Source: Laccaria trichodermophora
Taxonomy: Eukaryota > Basidiomycota > Agaricomycetes > Agaricales > Hydnangiaceae
Length of the DNA: 64,000 nucleotides
Assembly (NCBI GenBank): GCA_018417955.1
Contig: JACTVC010000001.1
Span: forward strand, 3,658,001-3,722,000
Direction: 5' to 3'
Position numbers and translations under genes: made by a program. The notes beneath the pieces were generated by a model. It had not been told where the DNA came from and did no database searches. It saw only the letters and a list, made by a program, of their open reading frames with translations. Below are positions 31,922 to 60,305 of this stretch, piece by piece (position 1 is the first letter of the stretch; every line of letters starts with the position of its first letter).

Positions 31922-32143
31922 ATGTCGGACGCCTCCAACGCTTCCGACAACGAGGAGGAGCGTTCTCCGCTCTTGAAGAGCTTGGAAAAGAGGTTGATGA
32001 GTGTGGGGAAATCACCGTAAGCACGTTCTTTTCTGAGATATTAGTGCTTTTCTCACCAAGTCGCAGCAACGATGCTATGGCCGTGTTTCTGGTTGCCGCC
32101 AAGTGGATTCCACGGTCCATACACCCATTCCTCAACTTAACAG

Positions 32144-36206: not shown

Positions 36207-37051
36207 CTTAACAAGGGTGATATATGCGAGGTTTCAGGATGGTGATGAAGTGGATGTCGCGGAAATTGAAGAGTATGTTTAGCACACACGTTACATACCC
36301 GAGTACTGACACTCAGCAGGCCCTCAGAAGAGGAACTAGCAGCCAACTCATTGTTCATGAAGCTAGTTCCCCATTTTGAGAGGGTTTTGAAGGAGGTTGA
36401 CACGCAACCCGGCTTGTTGCATAGTTTTATCAAGATGGTGAGTACGTTATATGCGCTCCAGGGAACGAGCTGATGGACGTAAATGATCAGCTAGCCACAA
36501 CGTCGAATGATGCGCGCTCCGAAGACACCGGAAGCCTTCGCTACGCTATCCTCAGCTACATTCCCAAGGATATCCGCAAGGACAAACTTGATCCCCCATT
36601 ATTGACGGACGACAGCAAGGCGCTTCACGGCTTCCATCACCCGATGACTGCGAGGCTACTGTGTCCAATGCGGCTGATTGAAGATTTCGACCGAAACCCT
36701 TCGTGCCTCCGCAACTCTCTCATCACCTATTCATATGCGCTAACAACTTCTGCCCAGGGATTTTATGACACGCGCACAAGATGGCAAAATTAAGATACGA
36801 ACTAAACACTGGCCATCATTCTTATACGACGAGGGAGAGTATGATAGGGAGGAACGCGACAAAGGGTTGTTCAAAGGTTTTTTATTGCTTCAGGTTCGTC
36901 TCACCTCATCATAACTGGTAGTCGTCACAATTATATCTCTGTTATAGGTGTACCGTCATATTTTCACAAGCCCGTCATCAGCTATAGGCAAGGTTAGAAA
37001 AGGAACGAAGCCCAGCAAAGCTCAAATCTATGGTATGAAATGTGCCAGCGG
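36207..37051 (+). pseudogene. DUF6698-like gene, middle exons
   Basis: This is the segment of the interrupted gene between element A and the giant element. Intron 36273-36319 (GTATGT..CAG) joins IEE to PSEEELAANSLFMKLVPHFE. Further introns are 36438-36490, 36703-36757 and 36894-36947. The reading frame stays open through all four introns, up to the target site GCCAGCGG at 37044-37051. Confidence 0.8.
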
Positions 37052-38035
37052 AGTGGTAGCTACCACTTTTATGATAAAATACAGTCAAGTGCCTGCACAA
37101 CTTTTTGGTAAATGGCACTGTGGTCTATGAAATGAGAAACATGGGGGAAATCTAATGAAACATGTTTCATTTTTGGCCCAGACCATTTCATATATATCTC
37201 ATTGTTTCCCTAGCAGTATTTCTTTGCCATTTCTTTCCCATTTCATTGGCTGCCTAGCCATATTTCTTTCCCATTTCATTCATGTTTCTTTTCCATTTCA
37301 TTGTTTCCCTAGCAATATTTCTTCGCCATTTCATTCCTATTTCATTGGCTGCCTAGCCATATTTCTTTCCCATTTCATTCATATTTCATTGCCATTTCAT
37401 TGTTTCCCTAGCAATATTTCTTTGCCATTTCTTTCCCATTTCATTGGCTGCCTAGCAATATTTCTTTCCAGTATTTCATTGTTTCCCTAGCAATATTTCT
37501 TTGCTGTTTCTTTGCTATTTCTTTGCCATTTCTTTACCATTTCATTGCCTGCCTAGCAATATTTCTTTCCGATATTTCATTGTTTCCCTAGCAATATTTC
37601 TTTGCTGTTTCTTTGCTATTTCTTTGCCATTTCTTTACCATTTCATTGCCTGCCTAGCAATATTTCTTTCCGATATTTCATTGTTTCCCTAGCAATATTT
37701 CTTTGCTGTTTCTTTGCTATTTCTTTGCCACTTCTTTCCCATTTCATTGCCTGCCTAGCAATATTTCTTTGCTGTTTCTTTGCCATTTCTTTCCCATTTC
37801 ATTGCCTGCCTAGCAATATTTCTTTTCTATTTCATTGCCTGCCTAGCCGTATTTCTTTCCCATTTCATTGTATTTCTTGGGTATTTCATTGCCTGCCTAG
37901 CCACATTTCTTTTCTATTTCATTACCTTCCCAGCCATATTTCTTTCCTATTTCATTCTTTGCCCTAGCAATATTTCTTTTCTATTTCATTGTATTTCTTT
38001 GCCATTTCATTGTTTGCCTTAGCACCCGATAAGCA
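37052..38035. repeat. Left terminal inverted repeat and CTAGCAATATTTCTTTG array
   Basis: After about 140 bp of conserved terminus, units such as TTTCATTGCCTGCCTAGCAA plus TATTTCTTTGCCATTTC repeat to about 38035, including three nearly identical 101-bp blocks between about 37480 and 37700. The mirror is at 58700-59510. The alternating arrays are hydrophobic in translation but carry no gene. Confidence 0.85.
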
Positions 38036-38179
38036 CCATTTCTTTGCTAGAAAAGCAACCACACATGAAAAAAAATGTTAATCTACGAAACACTCTATAT
38101 ATCATCTAATTCAAAGTACTCGTTCTCGTCAACTTCATCTTCTTCCTCTCCTTCCATTTCAGAGGTCTTTACCATCCCC

Positions 38180-38455
38180 CATGAGTTCCGGCGGAATCCG
38201 GCGGATTCCAAGTGGAATGTCGGAATTCCATGGAATTCCGACGGAAACTAGTTGGCTGGAGCCTCAGCCATTCTGGTTTCCAATTCCACAGAAATTCCAA
38301 TGGAATCCGACGGAATCCGGTGGAAATGGTCGGAATCTGGGAGCCTCCCGGAACAGTTTCCATTGGAATTCCAACCAGATTCCATGGAATTCCAATGGAA
38401 AGTATATTCCAGTCAAATTCCAACAGATTCCGAGAGATTCCAATGAATTCCAATA
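38180..38455. repeat. GGAATTCC/GGAATCCG array (E2)
   Basis: Degenerate units such as TCCGACGGAATCC, TTCCATGGAATTCC and CAATGGAATTCC, many self-complementary around GGAATTCC. The counterpart at 39690-39985 uses CATTGGAATTCCATTCAGAA units. Confidence 0.8.
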
Positions 38456-38489
38456 TTTGTTGTTGTTATTATAATATATAAAAAAAGAA

Positions 38490-38575
38490 GTGGATGCATA
38501 AGGATTGAACTCTAGCCTCGGGGAAGGTCACGTGAGGTCCAAGCAGCAACATTTCCACTACACCATATGGCCGTT
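38490..38575 (-). ncRNA. tRNA-like sequence in E2
   Basis: On the minus strand an A-box-like TGGTGTAGTGG (38565-38555) is followed, 43 bp further on, by a B-box-like GAGTTCAATCC (38512-38502). It has the same place and direction relative to E2 as the tRNA-like part of E1, pointing to the terminal array. Stem pairing is poor, so a Pol III promoter relic or SINE head is more likely than a tRNA gene. Confidence 0.5.
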
Positions 38576-38754
38576 AAAATGCTAGTAACATTTATTCCAT
38601 ACAACCCACCCTCACGGCCACCTTCCTAAACGAGTCGCGGCATTCGCCGGCGTCACCATCAGCATTCCGTTTTGCTGTCAACCACAACCACAACCACAAC
38701 CACCGTCACCACGACCAGCGCGGTCACCGCCAACCACGCCCATGCCAGCGGACA

Positions 38755-39530
38755 ACGACGACAACACGACAACACGACGACGACGACGGACGACGACACG
38801 TCAGCGACGACGAGGCCGGCCACACGACGACGGACGACGACACGTCAACGCACGGCGACGACGGACGACGACGACACGTCAACACGTCAGCGACGACGAG
38901 GCCGGCCACACGACGACGGACGACGACACGTCAACGCACGGCGACGACGGACGACACGTCAACGCACGACGACGACGACGGACGACGACGACACGTCAAC
39001 ACGTCAGCGACGACGAGGCCGGCCACACGACGACGGACGACGACACGTCAACGCACGACGAGGACGACGACACGTCAACGCACGGTGACGACGGACGACA
39101 CGTCAACGCACGACGACGACGGACGACGACGACACGTCACGTCAACACACGACGACCACGCACGACACGTCAGCGACGACAAGGACGACACGTCAACGGA
39201 CGACACGTCAGCGACGACGAGACGGCCGCACGTCAACGGACGATGACGAGCCCCCTTCCTTTTCCCTCCCCCCTTCCTATTCCCTCCTCCTTCCTATTCC
39301 CTCCCCTTTCCTTTTCCCTCCCCCTTCCTTTGTCCTCCCCCTTCCCTGTCCCTCCCCTCCCTCTTCCCTCTCCCTTCCCTTTTCCCTCCCCCTTCCCTTG
39401 TCAATCCCCTATTTCTTGTGCCCCCCCCCCTTTCCTTTTCCCTTTTCCCTTCCCCCCTTCCTTTTCCCTTTTCCCTTCCCCCTTCCCTCCTCATTTCCTG
39501 CCCCTTCCTTGCCCATCCCCTCCCTCTCTA
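38755..39530. repeat. CGACGACGG / CACGTCAACG triplet-rich block and CT-rich tract of E2
   Basis: From 38755 to about 39245 imperfect repeats of roughly 95-150 bp combine ACGACGACGG, GACACGTCAACGCACG and AGGCCGGCCACACGACGACG. From 39246 the plus strand is nearly all C and T (CCCCTTCCTTTTCCC). Long arginine- or proline-rich frames here are compositional artefacts. Confidence 0.8.
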
Positions 39531-42289
39531 GTATACACTGTATGTAGTTAAATATATTTTGTATTATAATTGAAATACATCATTATTTGATCTAAATCAC
39601 TTGTGAATTTTATAAGGAGGTTTGAATTTATGACTTCAATAAATACAGCTCAAGTCACCTGACCTCTACCTCAGTTCTGATCAGCACTAATCAGTCTTCT
39701 GGAATTCCATTCAGATTCTGGTGGAATCCATTGGAACTCCATTCAGAATCCGGTGGAATCCATTGGAATTCCATTCAGAATCCAGTGGAATCCATTGGAA
39801 TTCCATTCAGAATCCGGCGGAATCCATTGGAATTCCATTCAGAATCCAGCGGAATCCATTGGAATTCCATTCAGAATCCGGCGGAATCCACTGGAATTTG
39901 AGATTCCTACCATTCCGGCAGACTCCGGATGGAATTCCGACATTCTATGGGAGTCCGTCAGAGTCCGCCGGAACTCATGGGGGAGGGTAAAGTACTGCCA
40001 TTTCATTACCATCAGTGTCGAAGTCCTCAGTTGCATTGAGCTCTGGAGTTGCATCATCACGTGACTCATCAGCAGCCTCAATGATCAAATGCTCATACTC
40101 TAGCCCCCACGACGGCATAATGCCACCACCCTGCAATTTGAGGTGTGGCAACCAGTAAACCGCACACTGCTCTGCCATACATGTGCACATATCCACCTGT
40201 TTATATGCATAACCTGAAATCCCACTCAAAATCACGGGGTCAGCATTACTTCGCAGTGAACTGCGCTCATGCCACCAATCTGCCTTCCACTTGTGATATG
40301 CTATGACACGTCGCATCTCCTCCTGAATGAGCATCCATTCTTCTTTCCACCTCATCATTCGAGCCCTAGCCTTTGCCCACTCCACACGCATATTCTCGTT
40401 GAACTCATCTTCATCAATGTGCGACACCGATCCAGAGCCAGTGGACTGAGCAACATGTTGTACCAGCCAGATCCATGACGGCTTGTAACGGCTGTTTGAC
40501 GTTGTCAAGTCGCCAGGATCTCTACCAGGACCACTGACATCCTTGGGTTTGAGCTCCTTCAGCCGTTCCGCCCATGAGCCACCAGGATCTAGTGTAGAGA
40601 GGGCACGCCATGCAACACGGTATTTCTGAGCTGCGCGATCAGTTTTGTTGTTGAAACGCTTGTACAGTCCTAACATTTGCGTGTTGGGCCTATTCCCGGT
40701 TCCTGAAACGTTGAGCCGTTTGAAGAGCCAGAGCCCCTGAATTACACGACACTGACGTCGGATCTCAGCAAGGGCATCATCTGCCTGTGGTTCACGTAGG
40801 CGTCGCTCAAGGTTACGGATCTCTTTGAGCTCAGGAAGGGCACGAATATGCGGTGGCAACGAAGACGGTAAGAAGAGTGGAAGGTTTTCGGCAAGAACTT
40901 CGGATGGCAATGATGCGTAAGGTGCTGCATTTGTTGCCTCAGGTGAGGGTTGGCTGTGCGAAATGAGGGTGGCAACGTGAGGCGTATAAACAAGTTGAAC
41001 TTCACGCCATGTATGAATGAGACGATGTAATGTGTTCCGCTTGTCTTGAAGATCGGCGAGCTGCTTGCTTGTCCGCAACCCTTTATTCTTGCTAACTTCG
41101 CGACGAAGGGTATATCTAACCACATTAAGAAAGAGAATTATACAAAGTATGGAGAATTTACTCACTGGCTGTCCTCCAAGTCAAAGCCGATCAATAGAAA
41201 TGCCGACATGCTAACCTTGTGTCGAGGAAGTCGCCCAAGCGCAACCTGTGCAGCCTCCTCCTGAGCTAATAATAAACGAACGTCTTGTAGTGTCGTCCCT
41301 GGAATAACATGAGAGAAAAACATCAGAAAAAAAGCCATAATTCATCGAGAAGATGAAACCTCACCGCTTCGTGGTTCCTGGTATGGATTCGGAGCTTTTG
41401 CTCTGGTGTTCCATGCGATAACCATGGCTTCCCACTTTTTGACAGTGGTGGGATGGAATGTCGCCAAAAACTGTTTGAAGACGTCGGCCTGTTGAGCACT
41501 CATTCTGAACGCCTCCTTGAGGCATTTTAAGAACAAAGAACCTGGTACAAAATAAATGTAAATATGTATGATGAGTAGACATAAGAAAAAAGACATACAA
41601 AACCCAACAATCTTTCTGAAGTTCCACCCGTTCCACTGATCATTTAAGGTGTCATGCCTCGCCGCTGGACCCATCTCCCAAACACTGGGGGCCAGCTGGT
41701 TTGTACCTGCCCACGTTGTTTCAATATCCTCGCCTACAGTCCGACCTGCACCCTCCATGTAGCTGAGGTTGAAGTTACTTCTACACCCATCACCGTGTCC
41801 GTTGATGTGCCAACCAGGGATTGCCACATCAAACTGGGTGGATTCAGGAAGTTGCATATGTTCGGGAAAGTCGCCCATGCGTTTTCGAAAGTTCTTCGAC
41901 CATTGGCAAATGATATCGTAAGTGATGACGATGTGGAGTAGTGTTATGCCCACCAACGTGGCAAGCACAATAAAATCAACACAACAATACCTGCCGGCAG
42001 TGATCAGTAGTTGAACGAGAGAGATTTCGATTGGAACTCACTTTTCACCCTTCTTGAGATCGCCTGCTCCATTTTTGCGTATCAGGCAGTGTCTTGAACA
42101 GATAACCAAAACCGCGCCCGATACAGCATACCCAGCTGTTGATCGAGTACTGGCGCGAACGAGAGCGTCGTGTTGAGATTCGCAAGTATTGATCTACAGT
42201 AATGTAATGAGTGATCAAAGTAGAAACAATCATCTGAATTACTGACCTCCGGTTCATCCACATAATTTGCAATATGGCCCTGGTACTCG

Positions 42290-45200
42290 AGTGGTAGCTA
42301 CAACTTATATGATATACATAAGGCAAATGCCTGCACAGATATTTAATTGTAGCCAAGGAAATCTATGATATGAAATGGTTTGGCAAATATATGAAATCTA
42401 TTTCTTTCTCTGCCAGCCCTATATTTCTTTCCCTACCTAGGCCGATGTTTTATCTATTTCTTTCCCCCATTCACTCATTTCTTTGGTTGCCTAGGCTGAT
42501 GTTTTAGCTATTTCTTTCCCTCCCAGCCCTATATCTCTTTGCTTGCCTAGGCTGATGTTTTATCTATTTCTTTGGCTGCCTAGGCCGATGTTTTAGCCAT
42601 TTCTTTCCTTCCCAGCCCTATATTTCTTTGCTTGCCTAGGCTGATGTTTTATCTATTTCTTTGATTGCCTAGGCTGATGTTTTAGATATTTCTTTCCCTC
42701 CCAGCCCTATATTTCTTTGGTTGCCTAGGCCGATGTTTTAGATATTTCTTTCCCTCCCAGCCCTATATTTCTTTGCTTGCCTAGGCTGATGTTTTAGATA
42801 TTTCTTTGGTTGCCTAGGCCGATGTTTTAGCCATTTTTTCCCCTCCCAGCCCTATATTTCCTTGGTTGCCTAGGGTGATGTTTTAGATATTTCTTTGGCT
42901 GCCTAGGCCGATGTTTCAGCTATTTCTTTGGTTGCCTAGGCCTATATTTTAGCTATTTCTTTCCCTCCCAGCCCTACATTTCTTTGCTTGCCTAGGCCTA
43001 TGTTTTATCAATTTCTTTCCTCCCATTCACCTATTTCTTTCCCTCCCAGCCACATATTTCTTTGCTTGCCTAGGCCGATGTTTTAGCTATTTCTTTCTTT
43101 CCCAGGCTGCATTTCCAAATATAGTAATGCACAGTTTTTAAACTGGGAAATGGAAATAAAATGGCAGAAAATTCTGGGCCAAAAATGGGGAGGTGCTCAC
43201 TGTTGTTGATGACATGGAGCATTGGTCTAGAGTGGTCTTCCAAATTTGTAAAACTACCCAGAAATACCCAGAAAAAATATACAGATGATGGCTAGGATAT
43301 CAGGCACTGCTTTCAGGGTCCACCATATATATCCAAAATAAGAAAATATCCTCAGGGATGCCAAAAGTGGAGGAAACCAATGATACATATACTGGCTGAT
43401 CAGGAGGGTGGTCACATGACCAATTTCCACAAGTGGTCAAAACAAAAAAAGTTGTAGCCCTGCACTGTAGTTTTCCAAATCTGTTTGAATCATGTCCTAC
43501 AGTGCTCCTGTTGTGCAGATATGTTGATAAAGATCTTTCTGACCACTGGCTTTTTCAACCTTTTGCACTTTTCTCCATCCATGAAAACAATATGATTTCA
43601 ACACATTCAGAAAGCTAAGAGGAGGGCTACAATGATTGTGTCATGGGAAATTTCACCCAAAAGGAAGGTGCATCCCTTTTAAAAAAACAGGAAATTGACA
43701 ATGACAGACTAAAAAAGATTACAGATTGAATACAAAAATCAGTCATGGACTCCAATATCTATGAACAAACAACCACAGACTACAAAAAGTTGGATATTGA
43801 CTACAAAGTTTACCAATAAACTACAAAAGACTACAAAGATTGGACATAGATCACATAGAAAAGTTTACATCAAGTCTCAGCTTGGACAGCTAGTTTGGCC
43901 AAGTCTAAGCATGTATGTATTTGATAAAGACATTATACTGAAGATGGACTTGAACCAGACAGAGATGGTAGAGAAGACACTGGGTTGGTCATCTTCTGAT
44001 ATGCTACTTGGATGTCTGACATAGACATGGATCTTGCTGCTGGATATGGCCTTGGATAGATTGCTTAACATCCATGGCATTGAACTTGAAGCAGATGCTG
44101 ATGTGGTCATGAACATCCCCACTGTTAGTTTTACAACTTTGTCACTGTCTGGCTCTGGCATAGAACTTGCATCTCTGACACTGAGATGGTTGTTGTTGGT
44201 GGATATGGACTTGTCCAGATTGCTTTACATACTTTGCTTTGCTGATATGTTGATTGGGCACTTTATCATTCATATCTTGGTTGGATGTATAGGTGGAAGA
44301 GCTGAAGATGGATGTGGTGATTGAAGTCATCACTGGATGGAATAACAAGTTCAAGCTTGGGTCTGAAGCATGTCTGGGATGCCTTGATAGATTGGGTAGT
44401 GATTGCTCATCTTGGTCTTTGACTATATGAACTTGGTCAGAAGGTGGAGGAGCACCAGAACCATGGACATGTCACTATACTTAAAGTTGCATGATGGTCA
44501 GACTTCATGTCACCCTAAGTTGTTGTAAGATCTGCCTTGTCTTGGAGCTGATGTATAGATAGCTGCAACTATACTTCACAACTTGAAATACTAGCTTGGC
44601 CAAAAGCAAACACAGGTACATTTGCTAAAAGATGTTATAGTAAAGGTGGACTGTCCCTCTCAGTACAAAGCTTAGCTTGAACAATTGTAGTAGACCTAAC
44701 TGCTGTAATCAAAGAAGTGGATACTACAAACCTATAATCAGCTGTTTGCAGTCTTTGGTTGTCTGTTAGTAGATATTGTAGTCCATAACTGATTTTTGTA
44801 GTCTATCTGGAGTCTTTTTAGTCTGTCATTGTCAATTTCCTGTTTTTTTACCAATCTTTGTAGTCTTTTGTAGTTTACTGGTAAACTTTGTAGTCAATAT
44901 CCAACTTTTTGTAGTCTGTGGTTGTGTGTTAGTAGATATTGGAGTCCATGACTGATTTTTGTAGTCTATCTGGAGTCTTTTTTAGTCTGTCATTGTCAAT
45001 TTCCTGTTTTTTTAAAAGGGATGCACCTTCCTTTTGGGTGAAATTTCCCATGACACAATCATTGTAGCCCTCCTCTTAGCTTTCTGAATGTGTTGAAATC
45101 ATATTGTTTTCATGGATGGAGAAAAGTGCAAAAGGTTGAAAAAGCCAGTGGTCAGAAAGATCTTTATCAACATATCTGCACAACAGGAGCACTGTAGGAC

Positions 45201-46349
45201 ATGATTCAAACAGATTTGGAAAACTACAGTGCAGGGCTACAACTTTTTTTGTTTTGACCACTTGTGGAAATTGGTCATGTGACCACCCTCCTGATCAGCC
45301 AGTATATGTATCATTGGTTTCCTCCACTTTTGGCATCCCTGAGGATATTTTCTTATTTTGGATATATATGGTGGACCCTGAAAGCAGTGCCTGATATCCT
45401 AGCCACCATCTGTATATTTTTTCTGGGTATTTCTGGGTAGTTTTACAAATTTGGAAGACCACTCTAGACCAATGCTCCATGTCATCAACAACAGTGAGCA
45501 CCTCCCCATTTTTGGCCCAGAATTTTCTGCCATTTTATTTCCATTTCCCAGTTTAAAAACTGTGCATTACTATATTTGGAAATGCAGCCTGGGAAAGAAA
45601 GAAATAGCTAAAACATCGGCCTAGGCAAGCAAAGAAATATGTGGCTGGGAGGGAAAGAAATAGGTGAATGGGAGGAAAGAAATTGATAAAACATAGGCCT
45701 AGGCAAGCAAAGAAATGTAGGGCTGGGAGGGAAAGAAATAGCTAAAATGTAGGCCTAGGCAACCAAAGAAATAGCTAAAACATCGGCCTAGGCAGCCAAA
45801 GAAATATCGAAAACATCACCCTAGGCAAGCAAAGAAATATAGAGCTGGGAGAGAAAGAAATATCTAAAACATTGGCCTAGGCAACCAAAGAAATATCTAA
45901 AACATCACCCTAGGCAACCAAAGAAATATAGGGCTGGGAGGGAAAGAAATATCTAAAACATTGGCCTAGGCAACCAAAGAAATATCCAAAACATAGCCTT
46001 AGGCAACCAAAGAAATATAGGGCTGGGAGGGAAAGAAATATCTAAAACATCGGCCGAGGCAGCCAAAGAAATAGATAAAACATCAGCCTAGGCAAGCAAA
46101 GAAATACAGGGCTGGGAAGGAAAGAAATGGCTAAAACATCAGCCTAGGCAACCAAAGAAATGAGTGAATGGGGGAAAGAAATAGATAAAACATCGGCCTA
46201 GGTAGGGAAAGAAATATAGGGCTGGCAGAGAAAGAAATAGATTTCATATATTTGCCAAACCATTTTATATCATAGATTTCCTTGGCTACAATTAAATATC
46301 TGTGCAGGCATTTGCCTTATGTATTTTAAATAGATTGCAGCTACTAGTG
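42290..46349. mobile_element. Element B: 4.06-kb palindromic KDZ-type element inside the transposase gene
   Basis: The ends are the same as in A. It is flanked by a perfect 8-bp repeat GGTACTCG (42282-42289 and 46350-46357). The transposase frame continues across one copy of the repeat, from PESEY into GHIANY. It is nearly identical to A over its whole length, with small indels in the arrays. It is a non-autonomous element landed in a transposase gene of what appears to be its own family. Confidence 0.92.
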
Positions 46350-47896
46350 GGTACTCGGACTCCGGGACATAAGCCCCCCATCCAGGCATCAGTTCCACGT
46401 CTTTGATGTGTCGTTCTTTGCCCTTGAGTTTGAAATTTCCATCAACGGCAATAAAGAGAGAATACAAGAATCTGCAGAAATTTAGCAAGTTGGCAGATTG
46501 CAACTAATCGACAAAACTTACAACAAAGGCCCTGCCTTTTCCCAATCGTCAGGGAGGTTTCGTTTAGGGTGAGGGCAAGCTGGACATTCGACCATCAGCT
46601 CCCCTTTAGATGTCCCACGAACGCCTTCAGGATCGTGACCTCGACCGGCTCGTTTAAGGCTCATCAAATTCCTCCACATTCGAAATACATGGTGAAACTC
46701 AGGATATCGGTACTATAGTTGTGATCAGAACTGGTGATGAAGACAAGAATATAAATTGACGTACAACTGGAGTGGACAAGTTGGCATTATCGGACCGTCG
46801 CAGAAGTGTGTGGTAGAAGTCGTACAGATTTGTTTTGCCTTGTAGTGTGAGTTCATGGAACGTTTCAAGGCAATCAAAGGTGAAAACCGATTGTGGACGT
46901 GAAAGCGTCGCCGGAAACCATCTCTCACGCAGTAATTGGACCCAGCTTGATAAAGGTTCGTTGCCGCATTGACAGTAGTCGATTGTAAGATGATGTGGCC
47001 CCGAGACGTCAAAGACAATGAAGTTCTTAGGCCCTGGCTCAGGACAAGGGCAAGGTTCCCCATGATGACCCAATTGATAGCGGAGACCGAGGCTTTGCAG
47101 CGTGGCCTTGGCAAAAAACGAGCCATTCCAGTTCTGTTTACAAAAATCAGCTTAGTTCGCATCTGGTGACAGCTGCACTTACCTCGACGCGATGCAAAGG
47201 AAGCGTCGAGTGTATAGCGAGGGTACAGTTTAAGCACTTGAGCATGCTTCCGTCACCACAGTCCTTGCACTTGATGACACCATCATGTTCTCCACACTTT
47301 GAACAGCTCGTCTTGCCCAAGAAACTACCCAGGCCATCATGGCGCAACACTTCATCTAAGAATGTCTCTCTGAATTTGAGCCATTCTGTGAGGTGATCCT
47401 AGAAAAACCAATCCTGTAAGTATTTAAGAACAACATAGATGAATTGAAAGGAATGAAGCAGTCTCAATAAGGGTTTGCCCGGGCCAGCCACAGAAGCCGC
47501 ACACAGGCAATAGGGCATAGGGAAGGAGATGAAAGTAGGTCAATTCCTTACTGAAGTTGTTGTATGTCTTTTTCTCTTGGGTTTAGCAGTGGTGTCGGTC
47601 TCTGGTATGCAACTCTGCCCTTCAAGCTCATGAGGGTCCGCAGGCTGTGGATCTGAAAGCGTGTCCAAGGGTTGTTCAGACGATTCGAGGGAAGAAGGTA
47701 TGAGGTGGTGCTCGCCCGTCAAGATTCCCCGCCGGCGAGAGTCGGTGCTGACAGTGACAAACAACGAGGAATTTGATGAAGAGGATGGTTGAGAGCTCGA
47801 GGGGACGGGGCGTGCAAGTCGGAATCCAGCAGGTAAGCGGGTTCGTTTAGCTTGAGGTCCATTTTGAGACGAATTGGCCCGCTTGAGGTTGGACAT

Positions 47897-48727
47897 TGGT
47901 AGGACTTGGGTAGGACGTAGTGTGACTACAGTGACTGTGTGTGACGAGCTCGCTCATCGTAAACTCGATCTCCTGGTCGTCTGGCCCTCCTAACAGGACA
48001 TGAGGAACTGTAAAGTACACAAATGATAAGCATATGAAAAAACAATGAAATCTCTCTCCCGAGGTCTGACATGGAACATAAATACAGTTTACGTGGTTAT
48101 AATTATTAGTTATCACCCCGCTTTTGGGTTTCTTTTGGGCAATGTCAATCGCAAATGAGCAAACTGCAGGGGATGAGCTACTGCTCCCAAATTGAGGAAA
48201 CAAGTTCTAATAATCTGTAATGACCGTCAAGATTATCTAGTAGGCAGTTTACTGAAAACTCGACAGTCAACGGGCCGATTCTGACTTGATTCCGACATGA
48301 AGTTTCTTGACAATCAATTAGCGGCAACTCTAATCTCTTCTCAACGATTAATTGAAAGCGGCAACTCTACCGTGACTCTCTTGAAATCTCGTGCTCAAAC
48401 GTCCTCATAAGTCATACATAATCTATCTACGTATGTTTCTCAAGGTTCGTACAAAAGAGTATGTTGAGACTAGTGCATTTCTTCTTGATTTCTTCACTCA
48501 ATTTCGAAGTTAATATTGGATCGCTGAAACAGCATGTCAGTGCTGAACCATCTTAAATTTTGAACTTGACTGGAGAAACTATTCTCTGAAAGTGGCATAA
48601 CGGTGGTTTATATTCAACAATTCTAGACAACAAGACAATAACATTTCTGAGTCAAATGAACGAGAGTTTCTGAACTATTCCTTCCACTGTTTCTACAGGC
48701 CATAGGTCGAACAGCAAGAGAACTAAT
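47897..48727. other. Intergenic, giant element
   Basis: It lies between the KDZ start codon and the end of the next minus-strand gene. It contains the presumed transposase promoter (upstream of 47896) and the 3' UTR of the RNase H1 N-domain-like gene. No gene and no repeat seen. Confidence 0.4.
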
Positions 48728-49665
48728 CTACTGAATAGCGTCCACATCTGGACCAAACCTTGCCACATCTCCCGGGTTACGTATGAAGTCAACCTTCCGG
48801 CTACGCTTAGCATCCAAGTAAAATGCGGTAGCCTGTTCAAGTGTCTTGAACGACTTGTGACGAGCACCTGGGACATGGTCAACGAGACACCTTATATCGT
48901 CCCTTAACGAGTAAACTGTTAGAATGCTAGGTTTGACAAGAAAAGGCAAACATACCAGTTTCCATAGTATACCCCGGTGCACTTTCCCTTGACGACGACA
49001 TAATATTTCGCATGGAGCAGTGGCTGATAGGTCGAAGAATAAGGAGGAAAACCGGGCGGGGAACACGGTACAAGCGGCGTGGGATGAAGCGGCGCACGCG
49101 TTACAATCGGCATGGGTTGAAGCGGCGTGCGTGGTGCAAGCGGTGTGGGATGAAGTGGCACAGGATCAATCAAGGCGAGGAGACGCGAGAATGTACTCGT
49201 TAACTCCAAGGACTCAGGGGACTCAGTCGGGGAATGATGTCCATCCTGCTGTTCCACTTGATTGGAGGTAGCCACTGGGATATCGACACGATCGGATTCG
49301 ATCGTAAGAGGATCAGCACCATCCTGCTGATTGTTGACCGCCCTCCTGGCAGAGCGGCTAAGGTGATGGGAAAGGAGTTGGAGCTGATGACGATCGCCAG
49401 AAGTGCTAGAAGGGCGTTGGGAACCGTCTAGAGCACCAGCTTCACAATTGTATCCTCTGGGCTTCGTGATCCAGTTGATCGGGGGCGGCAAGCTGCCGTT
49501 CACTGAAGGGCTCTGCGATACTTCTAGAGCGCCAGCGTCGCGATTGTATACTCTGGGCTTCGTGCTCCAGTTGATCGGAGGCGGCGAGCTGCTGTTTACT
49601 TCAGACCCCGGTGTATTGGAATCTGTGAACGATGTCAGAGATTTGACGAACGATGCAGAGAGAAC
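48728..49665 (-). CDS. Protein with RNase H1 N-terminal-like (hybrid-binding) domain
   Basis: On the minus strand, Ser/Pro-rich sequence leads to KYYVVVKGKCTGVYYGNW (about 49010-48957). After an intron around 48957-48920 comes DHVPGARHKSFKTLEQATAF (about 48875-48820), with the stop at 48728. These two halves match the small domain at the N-terminus of RNase H1 that binds RNA-DNA hybrids; no RNase H catalytic domain follows. The N-terminal part holds a tandem repeat of about 35 residues (PPPINWSTKPRVYN / PPPINWITKPRGYN). The exact start is uncertain: the frame is open up to about 49665. I could not find a normal-length intron that joins the two halves in frame, so a one-base error or a small lesion is possible. 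It is divergent from the 764-codon gene. Confidence 0.55.
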
Positions 49666-49864
49666 ATGCCCTTAGTCATTTCGTAGTATTGGGGCTGGAA
49701 GACGTGGTAAATTGAAAATTTCGTCCAAGGACTCCAAACATACCAAAATCGGGTCACAAACAATTCAAGCAATCAGGGCCCTGTACCACATAGCGGGAAC
49801 CTCGCACCCATATTTACGTAGCCCCCATTGCATCCCAACTTTATCCTTTCTCAGCTCATACAGC
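49666..49864. promoter_or_regulatory. Divergent promoter region inside the giant element
   Basis: About 200 bp lie between the divergent RNase H1 N-domain-like gene and the 764-codon gene. ACCCATATTTACG near 49805 is AT-rich, and a pyrimidine-rich stretch (TTTATCCTTTCTCAG) lies at about 49840 before ATG 49865. This suggests co-regulation, but nothing more specific is visible. Confidence 0.4.
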
Positions 49865-52800
49865 ATGACACGTGCTACCTGGACCACTGAAGCTCAGCAT
49901 GATTGGCTAGAGGCTCGCAAAGCTCAGTTCATTGAAGCGAATCAGAGGAAGGCGGCTGCGAAAGAATTCTTTCCCGACATTGTCAAGGCATTCTGTGAAA
50001 ACTGGCCTGTGCCTTCGGTTTCGCAAGAAGAAATTGCTGCAGCAGGTTCAGTTGAACGTGCAACAAAGGATAAACGTGACAAATATGACAAGGTACCTGA
50101 TTGCTGATCACGCCCAAATAGTGTGCTGACTTGACCTGATGTAGCGCGTCCGTGGTTGGTTCCACAATAATAGCAGAAGCATAGCTTCCGGCAAGGGGTC
50201 TCATGGTGTCCTGAAGGTCAACCCGAAGGCTAAGACACTTCAGCCTTGGCAGGCATATCACGCGTTGACGTACCAGAACCAATGGAAGCCGGTCATCCAG
50301 GAGGAATGGGTTACCTACCAAAAGGAGTGGATTTCCGAGCATCCCAAGGAGCCGATCCCTCCAAAGACTCGATTTCAGATCATGGTTGAGTTCATGAAAG
50401 GGAAATACAACCAAGAGACCGAGGAGATGAAAGCGAAGTGCGAAGAGTATCGAATGAATCGTCGTGACAATAGCCCAGTAGGCTCAGTTGACGAAGACAC
50501 TAAAAAAAACATCGAATTACAGGCGTAAGCATCATCTCCTATCCGTTCAAAAGCAACCTGACTTACTCATAAGCTAGTGCGATCGACAAACTTCCCCGCA
50601 CGCTGGCGATGATGGGCGAGTCTCTCATGCAACAGACCGGGTGGCACATTAGCATCCTTGCAGGCGGCCCTTTACCTGAAAACGGCGGCAAGGTTGTGAC
50701 GTACTTGTAGGTTAATCTATTTACGAGTGAGTATACATAAAGTTCACATAACGTACAGGTCGCACACCGGAAAGACGAAAGCTGGCGAGACTTTTGACAA
50801 GTTCCTGGGGAAGAAAGAATACGATGAATCCTTCCTTTTTGCATTCGAAAGGTTCCTTCAATCGTCATTTTGTGAGTACCACAGTAAGAGAGCAATAAAA
50901 TAATGACCAACCTATGTTTTTGGCAGCTCCCGAGGATTGTGCGGCATGCAGCCTTTCGAAAGAGGATCCAGAGGGAGAGCGTGAGGTTTCTGATGAAGAG
51001 TGGAAGGCAAAAAACGAGCAGGTTCCTGAGGCGGAAGGGCAATCAACTATGCGTGATGCAGATAAAAGCATAGAAACCAATGGCGCTGGCGGTGACGATG
51101 CGAAAGGAGATGGCGATGTGATGGAAACGGGATCGAACTCAAGAGGGTTGAGTGAATACGAAAGAACCAAAGCTGAGAACATCGCAAAACTTAAACTACA
51201 ACTTGCCAAGTTGGACGAACAGTTTCCAGTACCCGAAGAACTGAAACGGAAGGCAGGACCAAAGAAAGCAGCGAATCAAGGCAAACCAAAAGGTGAAGCA
51301 GTCATTCGACGCGAATCATCAAGAAACAAATCAAAGTTACACAAGTATACATAGATGTCGCTATAGTACCATAACAATAGAAATTGACAATTGTCCCAAT
51401 AAGTCATAGGGCTACCCCAATGGGCCCAATACACATGGACGCTATGGATCCATACCTGGGACCAATGGATGTTTACAGCATATGGTATTAATGTGTGGCC
51501 CAATGCATATTCTGCAGATGTGGTTATTGCCATAATCAATGGTACCATAGGTACCCAAAGTATAATCTACAGAATGGCCAAATGTTGGGCCACATGCATT
51601 CAAGAGATCACTGGAAGCATTGACATGCTGACTGCAAGTGCTCCGAAAATGCGACTGAAAAAATGTCCGGATTTGTGGTTGCCATGTTGGATGTCACTGC
51701 CCCAAATATGCAGCTGAAGAAAGGTCCGGATTTGTCACTAGTATGCAGAATACCAGTGCTCCAAAAATGCGGCCGAAAAAATGTCCGGATTTGTGATTAA
51801 CTTAGTTAATGTCACTGCTCCGAAAATGCGGCTGAAAAGAACATCTGGATTTGTATTTAAGATGCTGAATGTCATTGCCCCAAAAATGCGGCCGAAAAAA
51901 TGTCCAGAGTTGTAGTTGACTGGGTAAATGTCACTGCTCCAAAAATGCGGCCGAAAAAACATCCGGATTTGTATTTAAGATGCTGAATGTCATTGCCCCG
52001 AAAATGCGGCCAAAAAAATGTCCGGAGTTGTAGTTGACTGGGTAAATGTCACTGCTCCAAAAACACGGCCGAAAAAACATCCGGATTTGTATTAGTACAA
52101 CACTGTCCGAAATTTCAGATGTAATTTTGACAGGCGCCAGACAACCCCCGTGGAATGCTTCGATGCCCGAAATTTAGAACTTCAAGCACCCGAAAATGTG
52201 GCCGAAAAAATGTCCAGATTTGTGATTAACTTGGTAAACGTCGCTGCTCCGAAAATGTGACCAGAAAGACATCCGGATTTGTATTAGTGCACCAATGTCC
52301 GATGTTTCGGATGTAATTTTGACAGGGACCAGACAGCCCCCCCATGGATTGCTCTGAAGTCCGAAATTTTTTAAGTTAGTTCGAACCTTCTTCTGTTTGG
52401 CCCGCGGGTTTCCAATTACAGCAACGGACCTTTTGTGGCTCCCCCACGGGTCTCCGATTACACCCATGGATTACCTGCTGCTCCGTTACACCTGTGGCCA
52501 CCCATGGACCACCTGCTGCTCCTTGACCAATTGGCCCTCTTCCATCAGCCCCCCACCTGTGGGCCACGTTTGCAGCTGGCCTGCAAAATGGACCAACAAT
52601 TGTGCCTTTACATTCAGAGACCATTATTCCATTAGACCCGTGGACCAGCAATTGTGCTGTTTCATCCACGGACAAGCACTTGTTCCATTACACCCGTGGG
52701 CTGCGCTCTCATCCACGGACCTGCTCTTTTTCTGTTACCCCCACGGACCAGCAATTCTTTTATCTGCGGACTGACGGATTACCTACCACTCCATTTCTGC

Positions 52801-55800
52801 GGACACCCATTGTTGCTGTTGGACCCATGGGCCACACCATTTGTTAAGCCCATTGGTCTGTTACATCTGCGGGCCACCAGCTAGAGCTCCACGGATGTGA
52901 ACATCTGGATTTGTATTTAACATGCTGAATGTCATTGCCCCAAAAATGCGGCTGAAAGAATGTCCGGATTTGTGATTAACTTGGTGAACGTCACTGATCC
53001 GAAAATGTGGCCAAAAAAACATCCGGATTTGTATTAGTGCAACAATGTCCGAAGTTTCACATGTAATTTTGACATGGACCAGACAACCCCCCATGGAATG
53101 CTCTGAAGTCCGAAAATTTTTAAGTTACTTCCATCCGGATATAATAATCCCCATAGACTGCACCAATGTCCGAAATTTTGGATGTAATTTTGACAGGGGC
53201 CAGACAACCCCCATGGAATGCTCCAATGTCCGAAATTTATACTTCAAGTACCTGAAAATGTGGTCACAAAAACATCCGGATTTGTATTTAACATGCTGAA
53301 TGTCATTACCCCGAAAATGTGGCTGAAAAAATGTCCGGAGTTGTAGTTGACTTGGTCAATGTCACTGCTCCGAAAATGCAGCCGAAAAAACATCCAGATT
53401 TGTATTTAACATGCTGAATGTCATTGCCCCGAAAATACAGCCGAAAAAATGTCCGGATTTGTGATTAACTTGGTGAACATCACTGATCCGAAAATGCGGC
53501 CGAAAAAACATCCGGATTTGTATTAGTGCAACAATGTCCGAAGTTTCACATGTAATTTTGACATGGGCCAGACAACCCCCCGCGGAATGCTCTGAAGTCC
53601 GAAATTTTTTAAGTTACTTCCATCCAGATATAATGATCCACATAGACTGCACCAATGTCCGAAATTTCGGATGTAATTTTGACAAGGCCAGACAACCCCC
53701 ATAGAATGCTCCAATGTCCGAAATTTAGTACTTCAAGTACCCGAAAATGCGGCCAAAAAAACATCCAGATCTGTATTTAACATGCTGAATGTCATTGCCC
53801 CGAAAATACGGCCGAAAAAATGTCCGGATTTGTGATTAACTTGGTGAACGTCACTGATCTGAAAATGCGGCCGAAAAAACATCCGGATTTGTATTAGTGC
53901 AACAATGTCCGAAGTTTCGGATGTAATTTTGACATGGACCAGACAACCCCCCACGGAATACGTTGATATCCGAAATTCTAGACTACACAATTTTGCAATG
54001 ACCAGTTGAACTCAGGCAGAACTCTCTCAATTCCTAACCGATTTGGATGTTCTTGGGCTCGTTTTGACAGGTAAACCCGTGGGGTTGTGGGTACGGGTAC
54101 TCTACAGGTCATGTATGGGCCACTTGTCCGATATTTATAGGTTTTTTAGTGTCCTTGATCATGAATGAGTATATGGGTTCATGGGTCTACAGTTGAAGGA
54201 GTGAGAAGGGTGGACATTTGCCATTTCTGTATCATTGGTTTATTATGAATAAGTACATAGATTCAGGGTGCTATAGTTGAAGGAGTGATAATGGTGGGCA
54301 TTTTGCTATTGCTTTCACTGTCTGTGTCACCTCTTCAACCATACATCCCCATGAACATATGTACTTATTCATTGATGTCTGGTCTCCCAAACTTGAAAGT
54401 TTGTAGTCCACTTTTCTGACATATAATTTGTAGTGTCCTTCACTATGAATAAGTACATAGGTTCATGGGACTATCATTGTAGGAGTGAAATGGATGGACA
54501 ATTTGACATTCCGGTATTTCACTTAGTTTTAAGATTGAACTATGTCATTCTCACTCCTTGAACCATATCTCCATGAACATATATATACTTATACATAGTA
54601 AATCAATGATCCAGCAATTGCAAAATGTCCACCCTTTTCACTCCTTCAACCATAGACCCATGAACCCATATACTCATTCATGATCAAGGACACTAAAAAA
54701 CCTATAAATATCGGACAAGTGGCCCATACATGACCTGTAGAGTACCCGTACCCACAACCCCACGGGTTTACCTGTCAAAACGAGCCCAAGAACATCCAAA
54801 TCGGTTAAGAATTGAGAGAGTTCTGCCTGAGTTCAACTGGTCATTACAAAATTGTGTAGTCTAAAAAGCAGACACTACAAAGTTTTGTAGTCTAGAATTT
54901 CGGACATCAACATATTCCATGGGGGGTTGTCTGGTCCATGTCAAAATTACATCCGAAATTTTGGCCATTGTTGCACTAATACGAATCCGGATGTTTTTTC
55001 GGCCGCATTTTTGGATCAGTGACGTTCACCAAGTTAATCACAAATCCGGACATTTTTTCGGCCGTATTTTCGGGGCAATGACATTCAGCATGTTAAATAC
55101 AGATCCGGATGATTTTTTGGCTGCATTTTCGGGTACTTGAAGTACTAAATTTCGGACATTGGAGCATTCTATGGGGGTTGTCTGGCCTTGTCAAAATTAC
55201 ATCCGAAATTTCGGACATTGGTGCAGTCTATGTGGATCATTATATCTGGATGGAAGTAACTTAAAAAATTTCGGACTTCAGAGCATTCCGCGGGGGGTTG
55301 TCTGGCCCATGTCAAAATTACATGTGAAACTTCGGACATTGTTGCACTAATACAAATCCGGATGTTTTTTCGGCCGCATTTTCGGATCAGTGATGTTCAC
55401 CAAGTTAATCACAAATCCGGACATTTTTTCGGCTGTATTTTCGGGGCAATGACATTCAGCATGTTAAATACAAATCTGGATGTTTTTTCGGCTGCATTTT
55501 CGGAGCAGTGACATTGACCAAGTCAACTACAACTCCGGACATTTTTTCAGCCACATTTTCGGGGTAATGACATTCAGCATGTTAAATACAAATCCGGATG
55601 TTTTTGTGACCACATTTTCAGGTACTTGAAGTATAAATTTCGGACATTGGAGCATTCCATGGGGGTTGTCTGGCCCCTGTCAAAATTACATCCAAAATTT
55701 CGGACATTGGTGCAGTCTATGGGGATTATTATATCCGGATGGAAGTAACTTAAAAATTTTCGGACTTCAGAGCATTCCATGGGGGGTTGTCTGGTCCATG

Positions 55801-58550
55801 TCAAAATTACATGTGAAACTTCGGACATTGTTGCACTAATACAAATCCGGATGTTTTTTTGGCCACATTTTCGGATCAGTGACGTTCACCAAGTTAATCA
55901 CAAATCCGGACATTCTTTCAGCCGCATTTTTGGGGCAATGACATTCAGCATGTTAAATACAAATCCAGATGTTCACATCCGTGGAGCTCTAGCTGGTGGC
56001 CCGCAGATGTAACAGACCAATGGGCTTAACAAATGGTGTGGCCCATGGGTCCAACAGCAACAATGGGTGTCCGCAGAAATGGAGTGGTAGGTAATCCGTC
56101 AGTCCGCAGATAAAAGAATTGCTGGTCCGTGGGGGTAACAGAAAAAGAGCAGGTCCGTGGATGAGAGCGCAGCCCACGGGTGTAATGGAACAAGTGCTTG
56201 TCCGTGGATGAAACAGCACAATTGCTGGTCCACGGGTCTAATGGAATAATGGTCTCTGAATGTAAAGGCACAATTGTTGGTCCATTTTGCAGGCCAGCTG
56301 CAAACGTGGCCCACAGGTGGGGGGCTGATGGAAGAGGGCCAATTGGTCAAGGAGCAGCAGGTGGTCCATGGGTGGCCACAGGTGTAACGGAGCAGCAGGT
56401 AATCCATGGGTGTAATCGGAGACCCGTGGGGGAGCCACAAAAGGTCCGTTGCTGTAATTGGAAACCCGCGGGCCAAACAGAAGAAGGTTCCGCGGGTCTA
56501 AGAGAACAAGAGCTGGACATCGTGGGTGTAATGGAATAAGATCCCGCAGGTGTAATGGACCTATTGTCAACCCGTGGGGTAATGGAACACAATCTGGCCT
56601 GTGTGGCGACCCACGGGGCTAACGGAACAAGAGCTGCCCCATGGGGGTAATGAACAACAGCCAGCCTGAGGGTGTAATGGATCAATTGTCAATCCGCGGG
56701 GGTAACAGAACATGATCTGGCCCACGTGGCGACCCCTGGGGGTAACGGAACAAGAGCTACCCCGTGGGGGTAACTGCACAATAGCCAACCCGCAGGTGTA
56801 ATTGCACAATTGTGCGGCTGTGGGTCCAACGGAACAGGAGCAGACCCACGGGTTTACCAGACCAAAGCCCACCTGCAAAATTCAAATAATCATTGGGCTA
56901 ACCTATGAACTATAGCTTATATCATGGCATGGGCCCAACTTACAAGCCATAGCATTGAAATTTTACCATTGGGCCCAACCTGTTCCCTTAACAAATACCT
57001 TACATTAGGCCCAACCATCAACCGTAGCTTAATAATTGGGCCAATGGGCCCAACCATCTCCCTTAACGATTTTCCTTCATTGGGCCCAACTATCAATGGT
57101 ACCTTAATACCGTCATATATCAACGGCCAAAATTACCCCCATTTAAGCCATGTGGCCAATCTATAAACCCTTAGCTTGGACTGTGGCACTGTCGTTGGGC
57201 CCAACAATCAAATATACATATTGTCATGTTGTTGGGCCAATGTATAGTATCATAATGTCTTTTGTAATTGGGCCCATTGGGGTAGCCCTATGACTTATTG
57301 GGACAATTGTCAATTTCTATTGTTATGGTTCCATAGTGTATCTACTGAATGCCCTGAAAGTTAGTCTTACCATGACCTTTGTGACAATCTACTCACGACG
57401 GCTTTCTTCAGCTCGTCAATCCCCACGTCCACCCCAGCAGCGGTGGAGACGGTCAATGGTGCCGAGGAGCTGCCCAATCCTGTGACACCTGTCGCAGATC
57501 GCACTGATGACATGGAGAAATCTACCAAGCCTACTCAAGAAATCCAAGCCAGTCCTCATGGTGACACCCAAGGCAACGAAATCGGGACTTTGACCATCGA
57601 TTCCGCCTCCACTTCCATTGCCAACAACCCAGATTCCGTCATTGAATCCGTTAACGCGGATCCCATCCAAACCCCTTCTCTCACTCAATCGGGTCCGCCT
57701 CTTGACTTCGTTGGCTTCACTCAGGTTCAGCAGCCCACCAACGTGAGTGACTCAGGCGCCACCAGCAGAGATCCAGCTGATCAGTCCACGGACTCCGTTC
57801 AGCAGCCGACTGAAAGTGCGACTGTCAGTGACTCGGACGTTGTTATGGCCGATGACACGGATCTTCCAACGTACCTCTCTAAGATGATAGGCTACCTACG
57901 CGGGGTTGCGGCAGATCGGGAATGGCAGGATTTGGTGACAAGTTTTGTCGCATTTGAGAAGATGGGTCGTCCTGTAAACGGGGTAAGTGCTATGTGACTC
58001 ACCACTGAATTTGAACTTACGTGTTTCTATGACAATCAGCACCTCTCGGTTCAATCTCGGCCACAGGAGGTCTTGGACTGGATCAGGAGCAAAAAGAAGG
58101 ACGTTGTTCCTTCTATCAACTCGAGCGTATACGGCCGTCGCTTTACAGAGTGGTGGGGTCAAATGCAGCCCGCGTGGCGGCAATTCCAAGGGGCCGATGG
58201 TCCGCTGAACCTCGTTCGCGACACTCCGATGGACAAAACCTGGAATGGGCTGAGAAAGGGAGGTACCGCTGGCATCTATGTAGTGGTGGTGGGCCTATCG
58301 TGGTGGATCAGGGCTCAGCGAAACGAACGCGACACAAATGCTTGGGCCGCTGTTGATGACCTCTCTTGGGTCATCCAGCAAATGTCTAATGCCTCAGATA
58401 CCGTGTTGTCGGCCCTCCAGAAACGACGCCGTGAGGACGAAAGCAAAGATGAAGAGGCGGAAGAGCAACCCAAAGAGAAACGGAGGTATGTACTGTCTCA
58501 GATAATTGTCCTTCTTACTGACGAATGTCATTTTCTATAGGCGTGATTGA
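49865..58550 (+). CDS. 764-residue protein of unknown function, giant-element cargo
   Basis: Exons: 49865-50092, 50145-50524, 50578-50706, 50759-50871, 50927-51344, 57412-57982, 58040-58485, 58541-58550. They sum to 2295 bp, exactly 765 codons with stop. The protein starts MTRATWTTEAQHDWLEAR and has an aromatic/basic N-terminal half (FCENWPVPSVSQEE, WQAYHALTYQNQWKPVI, KTRFQIMVEFMKGKYN, RAIDKLPRTL-like AAIDKLPRTLAMMGES, QTGWHISILAGGPLP). A Lys-rich low-complexity middle follows, then a C-terminal domain (PTYLSKMIGYLRGV, EWWGQMQPAWR-like TEWWGQMQPAWRQF, LRKGGTAGIYVVVVGLSWWI). I recall similar Agaricomycete proteins without a known function. Intron 5 contains the 6-kb palindrome F and would be 6067 bp long. 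All splice sites are GT..AG and the frame is clean, so it may still be expressed. Confidence 0.75.
51700..53990. repeat. TCCGGATTTGT / GAAAATGCGGCCGAAAAAA array of F (mirror 54895-55970)
   Basis: Roughly 70-bp units alternate ATTTGTATTTAACATGCTGAA, GTCATTGCCCCGAAAATGCG and GCCGAAAAAATGTCCGG; a second unit type has CCAGACAACCCCC and GTCCGAAATTT. TCCGGA and CGGCCG cores are self-complementary. The left arm has extra copies, so the palindrome is not symmetrical in length. Confidence 0.8.
54390..54900. repeat. Centre of F with ACTACAAA/TTTGTAGT module
   Basis: GTTTGTAGTCCACTTTT at about 54401 and GTAGTCTAAAAAGCAGACACT near 54860 repeat the module found in P1 and N. The centre also contains inverted CATATACTCATTCATGATCA-type segments at about 54155 and 54670. 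Confidence 0.6.
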
Positions 58551-58699
58551 TTTCCCTTATATTATTGTTCATCCGTATGCATATATTCCGATTGCATAGA
58601 TAATTACCATGTCGTGGACTCCTCTACTTATACCTTTCGATGTGTAGCCTAAGTGTGATTATGTCATACTTCAGCCAAACACAATCAAACACTTTCTGT

Positions 58700-59510
58700 G
58701 TAAAGAAATACGGCTAGGCAGCCAATGAAACAGGAAAGAAATCCTTCAAGGCAGAAAATGAAACAAGAAAAAAATGTTGCTAGGGAGGCAATGAAATAGG
58801 AAAGAAACATGGCTAGGCAGGAAAAGAAATAGGAAAGAAATATGGCTAGGCAGGAAAAGAAATAGCAAAGAAAGAGCAAAGAAATATTGCTAGGGAAACA
58901 ATGAAATACCAGAAAGAAATGTTGCTAGGCAGGCAATAAAATGGGAAAGAAATAGCAAAGAAACAGCAAAGAAATATCGGAAAGAAATATTGCTAGGCAG
59001 GCAATGAAATGGTAAAGAAATGGCAAAGAAATAGCAAAGAAACAGCAAAGAAATATTGCTAGGGAGGCAATGAAATGGTAAAGAAATGGCAAAGAAATAG
59101 CAAAGAAACAGCAAAGAAATATTGCTAGGCAGCCAAAGAAATGGCAAAGAAATATTACTAGGGAAACAATGAAATATCGGAAAGAAATATTGCAAGGCAG
59201 GCAATGAAATGGTAAAGAAATGGCAAAGAAATATTGCTAGGGAAACAATGAAATAGAAAAAAAATATGGCCAGGCAACCAATGAAATGGAAAAGAAATAT
59301 AGCCAGTCAGCCAATGAAATGGGAAAGAAATGGCAAAGAAATATTGCTAGGGAAACAATGAGATATATATGAAATGGTCTGGGCCAAAAATGAAACATGT
59401 TTCATTAGATTTCCCCCATGTTTCTCATTTCATAGACCACAGTGCCATTTACCAAAAAGTTGTGCAGGCACTTGACTGTATTTTATCATAAAAAGTGGTA
59501 GATACTAGTG
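58700..59510. repeat. Right terminal inverted repeat and array of the giant element
   Basis: The inverse of the left end: GCAAAGAAATATTGCTAGG and CAGGCAATGAAATGG units, then about 140 bp of conserved terminus ending GGTAGATACTAGTG at 59510. The number and order of units differ from the left end. Confidence 0.85.
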
Positions 59511-60305
59511 GCCAGCGGTCGCACGATCGCATATGCTTGCATTCAGGTAAGGTTTTGATATCTCTTAACGCCACCTGACGCCCTGCAGACGCGCTTCTTG
59601 CTGAGCAATCTCAATTCGTGGTCCACGGTTGATGGCCACTTCGACCTTCACGCATTTTACGACAACATCGTCGCCCTCTTTGAAACAAATCCGCGTTCGC
59701 GTTGGGTCGTCGAAACACTCAACTGGTGGAATTCGTACGTTTTTCTCACAAATATCATTCATAGATCTAATATTTTTATCAGTCAAGTTTTGTGGCCGAA
59801 AGCTCGAGGTCACAAGAAGGCGAAAACATGCGAAGACCTTACGGAGTCTGAGGATTCGGGTGACGACGATATTTTGGCGAAACATCGTGCCGAGGTAATA
59901 TTTTTATTTGGTCTTTGAGGCTGCTGAGCTTTCCAAATAAGCAGATGCAGTCGTCGACGGACGCTACGCGTGGCCGTACCGCTCAGGTAAACTCCCATAA
60001 CATCATTAACATTGTATTGATAATATTGCAGAGGGATGAATCCCACCGAAGCAATGGCTCCCAACGCTCCACATCCCGACCTTCTCGTCGTGATGACCCA
60101 CCTCATGACCAAAGTCATAATCCCAGTCCTCCCTGCCCTCCACGCCATCGCAGTCCCAGTCCTCCCCGCCCTCCACGCCCTCCACGCCATCGCAGTCCCA
60201 GTCTTCCACGTCCTCCACACCATCGCGGTCAAAGTCGCCTTGGCTACACGCAAGACGGTCCTCGTGGCCGCAGCCATCAACGCAACTCCTCCCACGCCTC
60301 CCACG
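59511..60305 (+). pseudogene. DUF6698-like gene, 3' exons
   Basis: The right copy of the target duplication (59511-59518) is followed by exon end IAYACIQ, intron 59547-59588, DGHFDLHAFYDNIVALFE, intron 59735-59782, and QVLWPKARGHKKAKTCEDL with an acidic stretch. Introns 59895-59944 and 59987-60031 follow, then an Arg/Ser/Pro/His-rich tail built of PPRHRSPS and PPHHRGQS units. Element C interrupts the tail at 60306, so the stop codon is not in the window. Confidence 0.8.

Follow-up and report, generated by a model that had tools for sequence, protein, structure and literature searches.

The window analysed here, a 64,000-nt stretch of the Laccaria trichodermophora genome, carries a precisely bounded KDZ transposon whose empty site is directly visible. 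The element, which we call A, occupies positions 37051-59510 (22,460 bp), has GAGTGGTAGCTACC at its left end and GATACTAGTG at its right end, and interrupts a coding exon of a DUF6698 gene (PF20414), where it is flanked by a target site duplication (TSD) of 7 bp. We read A as a KDZ transposon that makes 7-bp duplications, has long inverted ends, carries a recurrent set of further genes (Y and X/Z) and shares its ends with short copies that would be moved in trans; for this reading as a whole we estimate a probability of about 0.85. The genome searched comprises 59.03 Mb on 77 contigs, with the window at C1:3658001-3722000, and window numbering is continued past 64000 where needed.

Borders and empty site of element A

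The 5' part of the interrupted gene lies at 36207-37050 on the plus strand, including the left target duplication, with PF20414 matches at C1:3694503-3694703 and C1:3694744-3695046 in the genome search; the 3' part lies at 59511-60305 on the same strand and matches PF20414 positions 152-206. An uninterrupted DUF6698 relative is found in inverted orientation about 30 kb beyond A on the same contig (C1:3746971-3747745, minus strand), and the two parts are 98.3% and 99.2% identical to it, respectively. When the flanks of A are joined with a single GCCAGCG, they align gap-free to this paralogue, with 1,415 of 1,433 bp identical, and the empty site is therefore directly visible. A preliminary description of the window had proposed both the insertion into a DUF6698 exon and a readable empty site, and had suggested searching for an uninterrupted gene to which the joined flanks could be aligned; the inverted paralogue answers on each point. 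The host frame does continue across one copy of the repeat, as first described, except that the residues RT before IAYACIQ had been left out: it runs GTKPSKAQIYGMKCASG-RTIAYACIQ, and the exon reads ...IYGMKCASGRTIAYACIQ, followed by a GTAAGG donor.

Direct reading of the window finds GCCAGCGG and inverted ends on both sides of A, in agreement with the first account. The left terminal inverted repeat (TIR) spans 37051-37280 (plus strand), with tandem subterminal repeats beyond it to about 38013, and the right TIR spans 59280-59510 (minus strand). The inverted arms are 214 nt long and 98% identical (37067-37280 and 59280-59493), and the termini are GA at the left and, read as reverse complement, CA at the right. 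That A is an element with defined borders is borne out, well past anything chance would give, by 22 copies with shared ends and by the empty site; the borders themselves fall at 37051 and 59510, the first G at the left being the element's and not the host's. Dating of A by the difference between its left and right TIRs was rejected, since the copies seen show this same difference between their two end types.

The host gene is part of a larger inverted duplication, in which 28347-32149, 36207-37051, 59511-60306 and 64422-65124 of the window numbering match the other copy at 98.3-99.4%. Two palindromic elements also interrupt the window copy and are empty in the paralogue, B1 beside the host gene (32143-36206, TSD CTTAACA) and B2 (60306-64000, running to 64313 on the contig, TSD TCCCACG). 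B1, A and B2 are found only in the window copy of the duplication; the opposite copy alone carries a further insertion, C (duplication AGCGTGC, read by eye). Each of the four has an empty counterpart in the opposite duplicate, and they were therefore inserted after the duplication, unless lost precisely from the other copy. The differences between the duplicates lie almost entirely at CpG, namely 17 of 18 in 36401-37050 plus 59518-60300 and 19 of 20 in 28347-32142 (compared with regions L029 and L032), with 16 and 18 CpG transitions in the two blocks. Raw divergence therefore probably overstates the age of the duplicates, and plain divergence dating is unsafe on these counts; the pattern looks like methylation-driven decay and suggests a duplication that may be younger than its raw divergence would imply.

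A region rich in long inverted repeats invites the question of whether the locus is an assembly artefact, with a collapsed repeat misjoined to duplicated flanking sequence. Yet misjoins would not be expected to yield exact 7-bp TSDs at A, B1, B2, C and a nested element, B3 (see below), nor the one clean empty site that each of A, B1, B2 and C has in the opposite duplicate, and the contig is 5.3 Mb long. We regard the chance of such an artefact as close to negligible.

Elsewhere in the genome, DUF6698 matches with identical scores occur on several contigs (e.g. C3, C35, C54 and C60), as if the family were carried on a repeat. Mirrored pairs of KDZ or DUF6698 matches (C77:1306-1484 kb, C76:1412-1433 kb and C4:464-476 kb) hint at further large inverted duplications.

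Length of the target duplication

The preliminary description gave the duplication at A as 8 bp, which would make A a Zisupton- or Dileera-type KDZ element. GCCAGCGG can indeed be read on both sides of A, and there are precedents: Zisupton and a Dileera family are reported to make 8-bp duplications (PMC12730594), and Cryptococcus KDZ1 to have 241-bp TIRs and 8-bp TSDs (PMC12810828). The other copies with the same ends nevertheless give 7 bp. We fetched 20 regions around such copies (L009-L028) and later added L038; one left-type and one right-type end are present in 18 of the 20 regions, in L038 and in A itself, and 17 of these 20 copies have exact 7-bp duplications. L011 and L022, with two right-type ends, stand outside this count, and in L039 and L040 just one end is seen. 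An 8-bp reading is possible for only 3 of the 17 duplications, close to the one in four that chance would give.

At A the duplicated sequence is GCCAGCG (37044-37050 at the left, 59511-59517 at the right). When the window and the 20 regions were scanned with an internal motif only, all 20 left-type ends read GAGTGG, and the G thus belongs to the element and not to the host; the eighth base of GCCAGCGG is the element's own terminal G at the left and a coincidental G at the right. The alignment of two sister elements with each other, L035 (position 1365) and L033 (reverse complement position 1751), starts exactly at the same G of GAGTGGTGG, and B1, B2, B3 and, by eye, C likewise give 7 bp. With respect to duplication length the 8-bp reading of A is refuted, and we consider a Zisupton/Dileera-type element with an 8-bp duplication very improbable.

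Transposase, accompanying genes and known KDZ families

The KDZ-type transposase named in the preliminary description is confirmed by Pfam. Its gene region (39975-47953, minus strand) matches the CxC2 domain PF18803 (E 2.6e-42), so that a CxC cluster lies N-terminal to the KDZ domain, and matches PF18758 (KDZ) in three pieces, two of them above cut-off (E 8.2e-37 and 1.9e-9) and the first, taken alone, under it (E 2.6e-5, 24.5 bits, cut-off 26.6). The exon pieces, whose borders are approximate as are those of X and Z below, lie on the minus strand at 47540-47953, 47147-47398, 46699-47151, 46518-46712, 46350-46503, 42082-42288, 42038-42193, 41342-42037 and 39975-41180. Between the first PF18758 piece and the rest sits B3, a nested palindromic element of 4,061 bp (42289-46349, TSD GGTACTC on both sides), and the transposase gene is therefore interrupted; the earlier view of A as a complete element is not supported. 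A second nested insertion, the dispersed element D (51364-57333, about 5.97 kb), lies between X and Z. Its ends are fixed by an inverted repeat, it contains a near-perfect internal palindrome (52383-56490, arms 99% identical), and its TA target duplication is tentative only. The suggestion that A had been enlarged by later insertions holds for B3 and D, the two nested insertions that could be delimited; their removal leaves about 12.4 kb and not 10.6 kb.

Apart from the transposase, A carries gene Y (48728-49671, minus strand), with a Cauli_VI / RNase H1 N-terminal domain (PF01693, E 7.9e-6, 26.5 bits, cut-off 21), and genes X (49676-51354, plus strand) and Z (57365-58540, plus strand), for neither of which the Pfam scan gave a match over cut-off. 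X and Z are probably the first and last part of one gene, as a single 632-aa protein model of Hebeloma cylindrosporum holds both (48% identity to X over 111 aligned positions and 52% to Z over 150); a model from Laccaria bicolor aligns with the whole of X (48%) and with the N-terminal stretch of Z (73% over 141). The Hebeloma model casts doubt on a count of three extra genes.

Relatives of Y, X and Z recur near KDZ transposases. We scored matches against 58 KDZ places (the window and the best 57 other matches of 150 scored; the divergent KDZ group described below stands outside these) at a distance of 20 kb. Within it lie 17 of 20 X matches, all 17 divergent, 9 of 10 Y matches, all 9 on the transposase strand, and 41 of 49 Z matches, 38 of them divergent (16/19, 8/9 and 40/48 without the window's own), where 3.9% would be expected for random places under even scatter. 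The preliminary description had counted these as three cargo genes. In favour of their being unrelated captured host genes, X and Z lack a Pfam domain over cut-off, PF01693 is common outside transposons, and 3 X, 1 Y and 8 Z matches lie away from the listed KDZ matches. The recurrence beside KDZ transposases speaks against random cargo, which we consider quite improbable; further genes are present as described, as recurrent KDZ partners rather than captured cargo.

How, then, does A relate to described families? Kyakuja elements occur in Laccaria bicolor and other Agaricomycetes, and Kojima (2025) reports two Laccaria Kyakuja families with 7-bp duplications, CA..TG termini, no TIRs and TET/JBP (PMC12730594). 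A resembles Kyakuja in its KDZ transposase and 7-bp duplication, but differs in having GA at the left end and CA at the other instead of CA..TG, and 214-nt arms at 98% identity where the Laccaria families are described as lacking TIRs. It also has the Y and X/Z set and no TET/JBP match, a component present in the published TET+ families though not strictly defining. None of the 76 PF12851 (TET/JBP) matches in the genome lies within 37051-59510, and TET/JBP cargo in A was accordingly rejected. A is thus a KDZ member by domain and Kyakuja-like by duplication length, and the published families are set apart by their described features; because their terminal features were looked for in A and are absent, we do not file it as Kyakuja. 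Zisupton and Dileera have a transposase of the same Pfam family as A, with 8-bp duplications as against 7 bp in A (PMC12730594). KDZ1-KDZ3 of Cryptococcus neoformans are, like A, large mobile KDZ elements (about 9-11 kb, KDZ1 about 11 kb) with TIRs of 139-241 bp, but theirs is a CxC1 domain where A has CxC2, and their duplications are 8 bp in KDZ1 and 4-8 bp in KDZ2 and KDZ3 (PMC12810828). KDZ insertions are also reported in Cryptococcus mating-type loci (PMC12510652), and KDZ and Plavaka TIR motifs in Marasmius oreades, in a 2021 paper that calls both element types understudied (PMC8290104).

Separately, a divergent KDZ group was seen about 3 kb from TET/JBP genes (e.g. C1:857278/860173 and C25:65344/62471), and many of the 76 PF12851 matches lie within a few kb of this group. 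Its members also match CxC2 in part, and it is probably the TET-carrying type described by Kojima.

Short palindromic copies and the proposed mobility of A

The preliminary description would have counted the lack of any other locus with A's ends as a refutation. The outcome favours the element, as these ends bound 22 copies including A, 20 with one end of each type and two (L011 and L022) with two right-type ends. The 21 other copies are 1.9-6.3 kb in length and mostly near-palindromic: the longest self-complementary arms exceed 1 kb in 16 of 20 copies (range 254-2,074 nt, 88.6-99.3% identical) and measure 1,746 nt in L038. Their longest stop-free frames are 97-297 aa, and of 60 KDZ matches on the contigs concerned none lies inside the 21 copies, for which no Pfam scan was made. 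A pattern search for the right end gave 25 exact occurrences and 7 variants with 2-3 mismatches (reversed control, 0). B1, B2 and B3 are likewise palindromes (arms 1,406-1,495 nt); their left ends are of a related type (GAGTGGTAGCTACAACTT) and their duplications 7 bp long. The genome has 15 left ends of this B type, 12 of them exact.

One may ask whether the short copies are an independent foldback family that converged on, or captured, the ends of A. Their interiors have no match to A's genes, and beyond the ends the only further similarity among the matches listed is a stretch of at most about 280 bp, roughly 76% identical, which belongs to B3. Against this, the first 119 bases of A, used as a query, gave 40 scored matches of 100 candidates that are 97-100% identical over 115-119 bp, the copies have the same asymmetric left and right end types and the same 7-bp TSD, and in L009-L012, the four copies for which it was listed, subterminal similarity to A runs on for about 550-930 bp at 82-89%. 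An independent origin is unlikely on this evidence.

L022 (C8:306736-310718) and L011 (C34:1981470-1985612), the copies with two right-type ends, have no duplication; in L022 the two flanks also mirror each other, for 12 bases or more. A palindrome at 9993-14161 of the window has arms of 1,634 nt at 99.94% and ends unlike those of A or B.

The KDZ superfamily, reportedly named by Iyer et al. in 2014, moves by cut-and-paste transposition with a DDE-type enzyme. Directly seen are insertion at many sites with a duplication of 7 bp, left and right ends of asymmetric type, later nested insertions and a break in the transposase gene. The transposase would bind both long ends of A and cut the element out, and the excised element would be joined to a 7-bp staggered cut. 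Y and X/Z may provide accessory functions, and the short palindromic copies, in which no transposase gene was detected, would be moved in trans by the transposase of A or of a sister element.

Several points weigh against this reading. No second copy of A's own transposase was found in the genome (the next best match is 66% over a 231-aa exon), so that the source of mobility is putative. Three of the 20 copies with both end types (L009, L019 and L020) have no TSD, and the duplication at D is tentative. The putative accessory role of Y and X/Z is argued from their position: the expected fraction assumes even scatter, the 3 X, 1 Y and 8 Z matches noted above have no listed KDZ match within 20 kb, and some of the counted elements are near-identical copies, so that independent events are fewer than the counts.

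Two of these copies, L019 and L020 (C9:72929-82228), match perfectly over 3,741 bp and lie in opposite orientation at a distance of about 1.8 kb. Their 7-bp duplications (ATCCGAC and TGACTGG) are exchanged, the trace expected of an inversion between the two copies. This recalls Galileo of Drosophila, a member of the P superfamily with mostly 7-bp TSDs, long foldback-like inverted ends and inversion-causing copies (PMC4168063). The transposase of Galileo is of another superfamily, and the parallel is in behaviour only; only KDZ and CxC2, and no P-type transposase, were over cut-off in the Pfam scan of A's transposase pieces. We tentatively suggest, as a possibility with somewhat less than even odds, that a KDZ lineage with accessory genes gave rise to several Galileo-like families of non-autonomous palindromes, large ones of mostly 3.5-6 kb. 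These would duplicate 7 bp on moving, land in relatives of one another (one having cut A's transposase gene) and, through recombination with inverted partners, flip the intervening DNA, for which L019 and L020 are suggestive. Neither palindromic KDZ derivatives nor the Y and X/Z gene set were found described in the literature covered, which excludes most subscription journals.

KDZ transposons are common in mushrooms. In A the borders, the target duplication and the empty site can all be read in one genome, which corrects the length of the duplication and provides defined ends for a transposition assay. The recurrence of Y and X/Z suggests that this KDZ branch makes use of other functions besides a transposase, and the palindromic copies that share A's ends can serve as a model of the way in which large palindromes and inversions arise from DNA transposons in fungi. 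If the Galileo-like scenario is true, KDZ elements would be a major driver of inversion and palindrome formation in genomes like this one.

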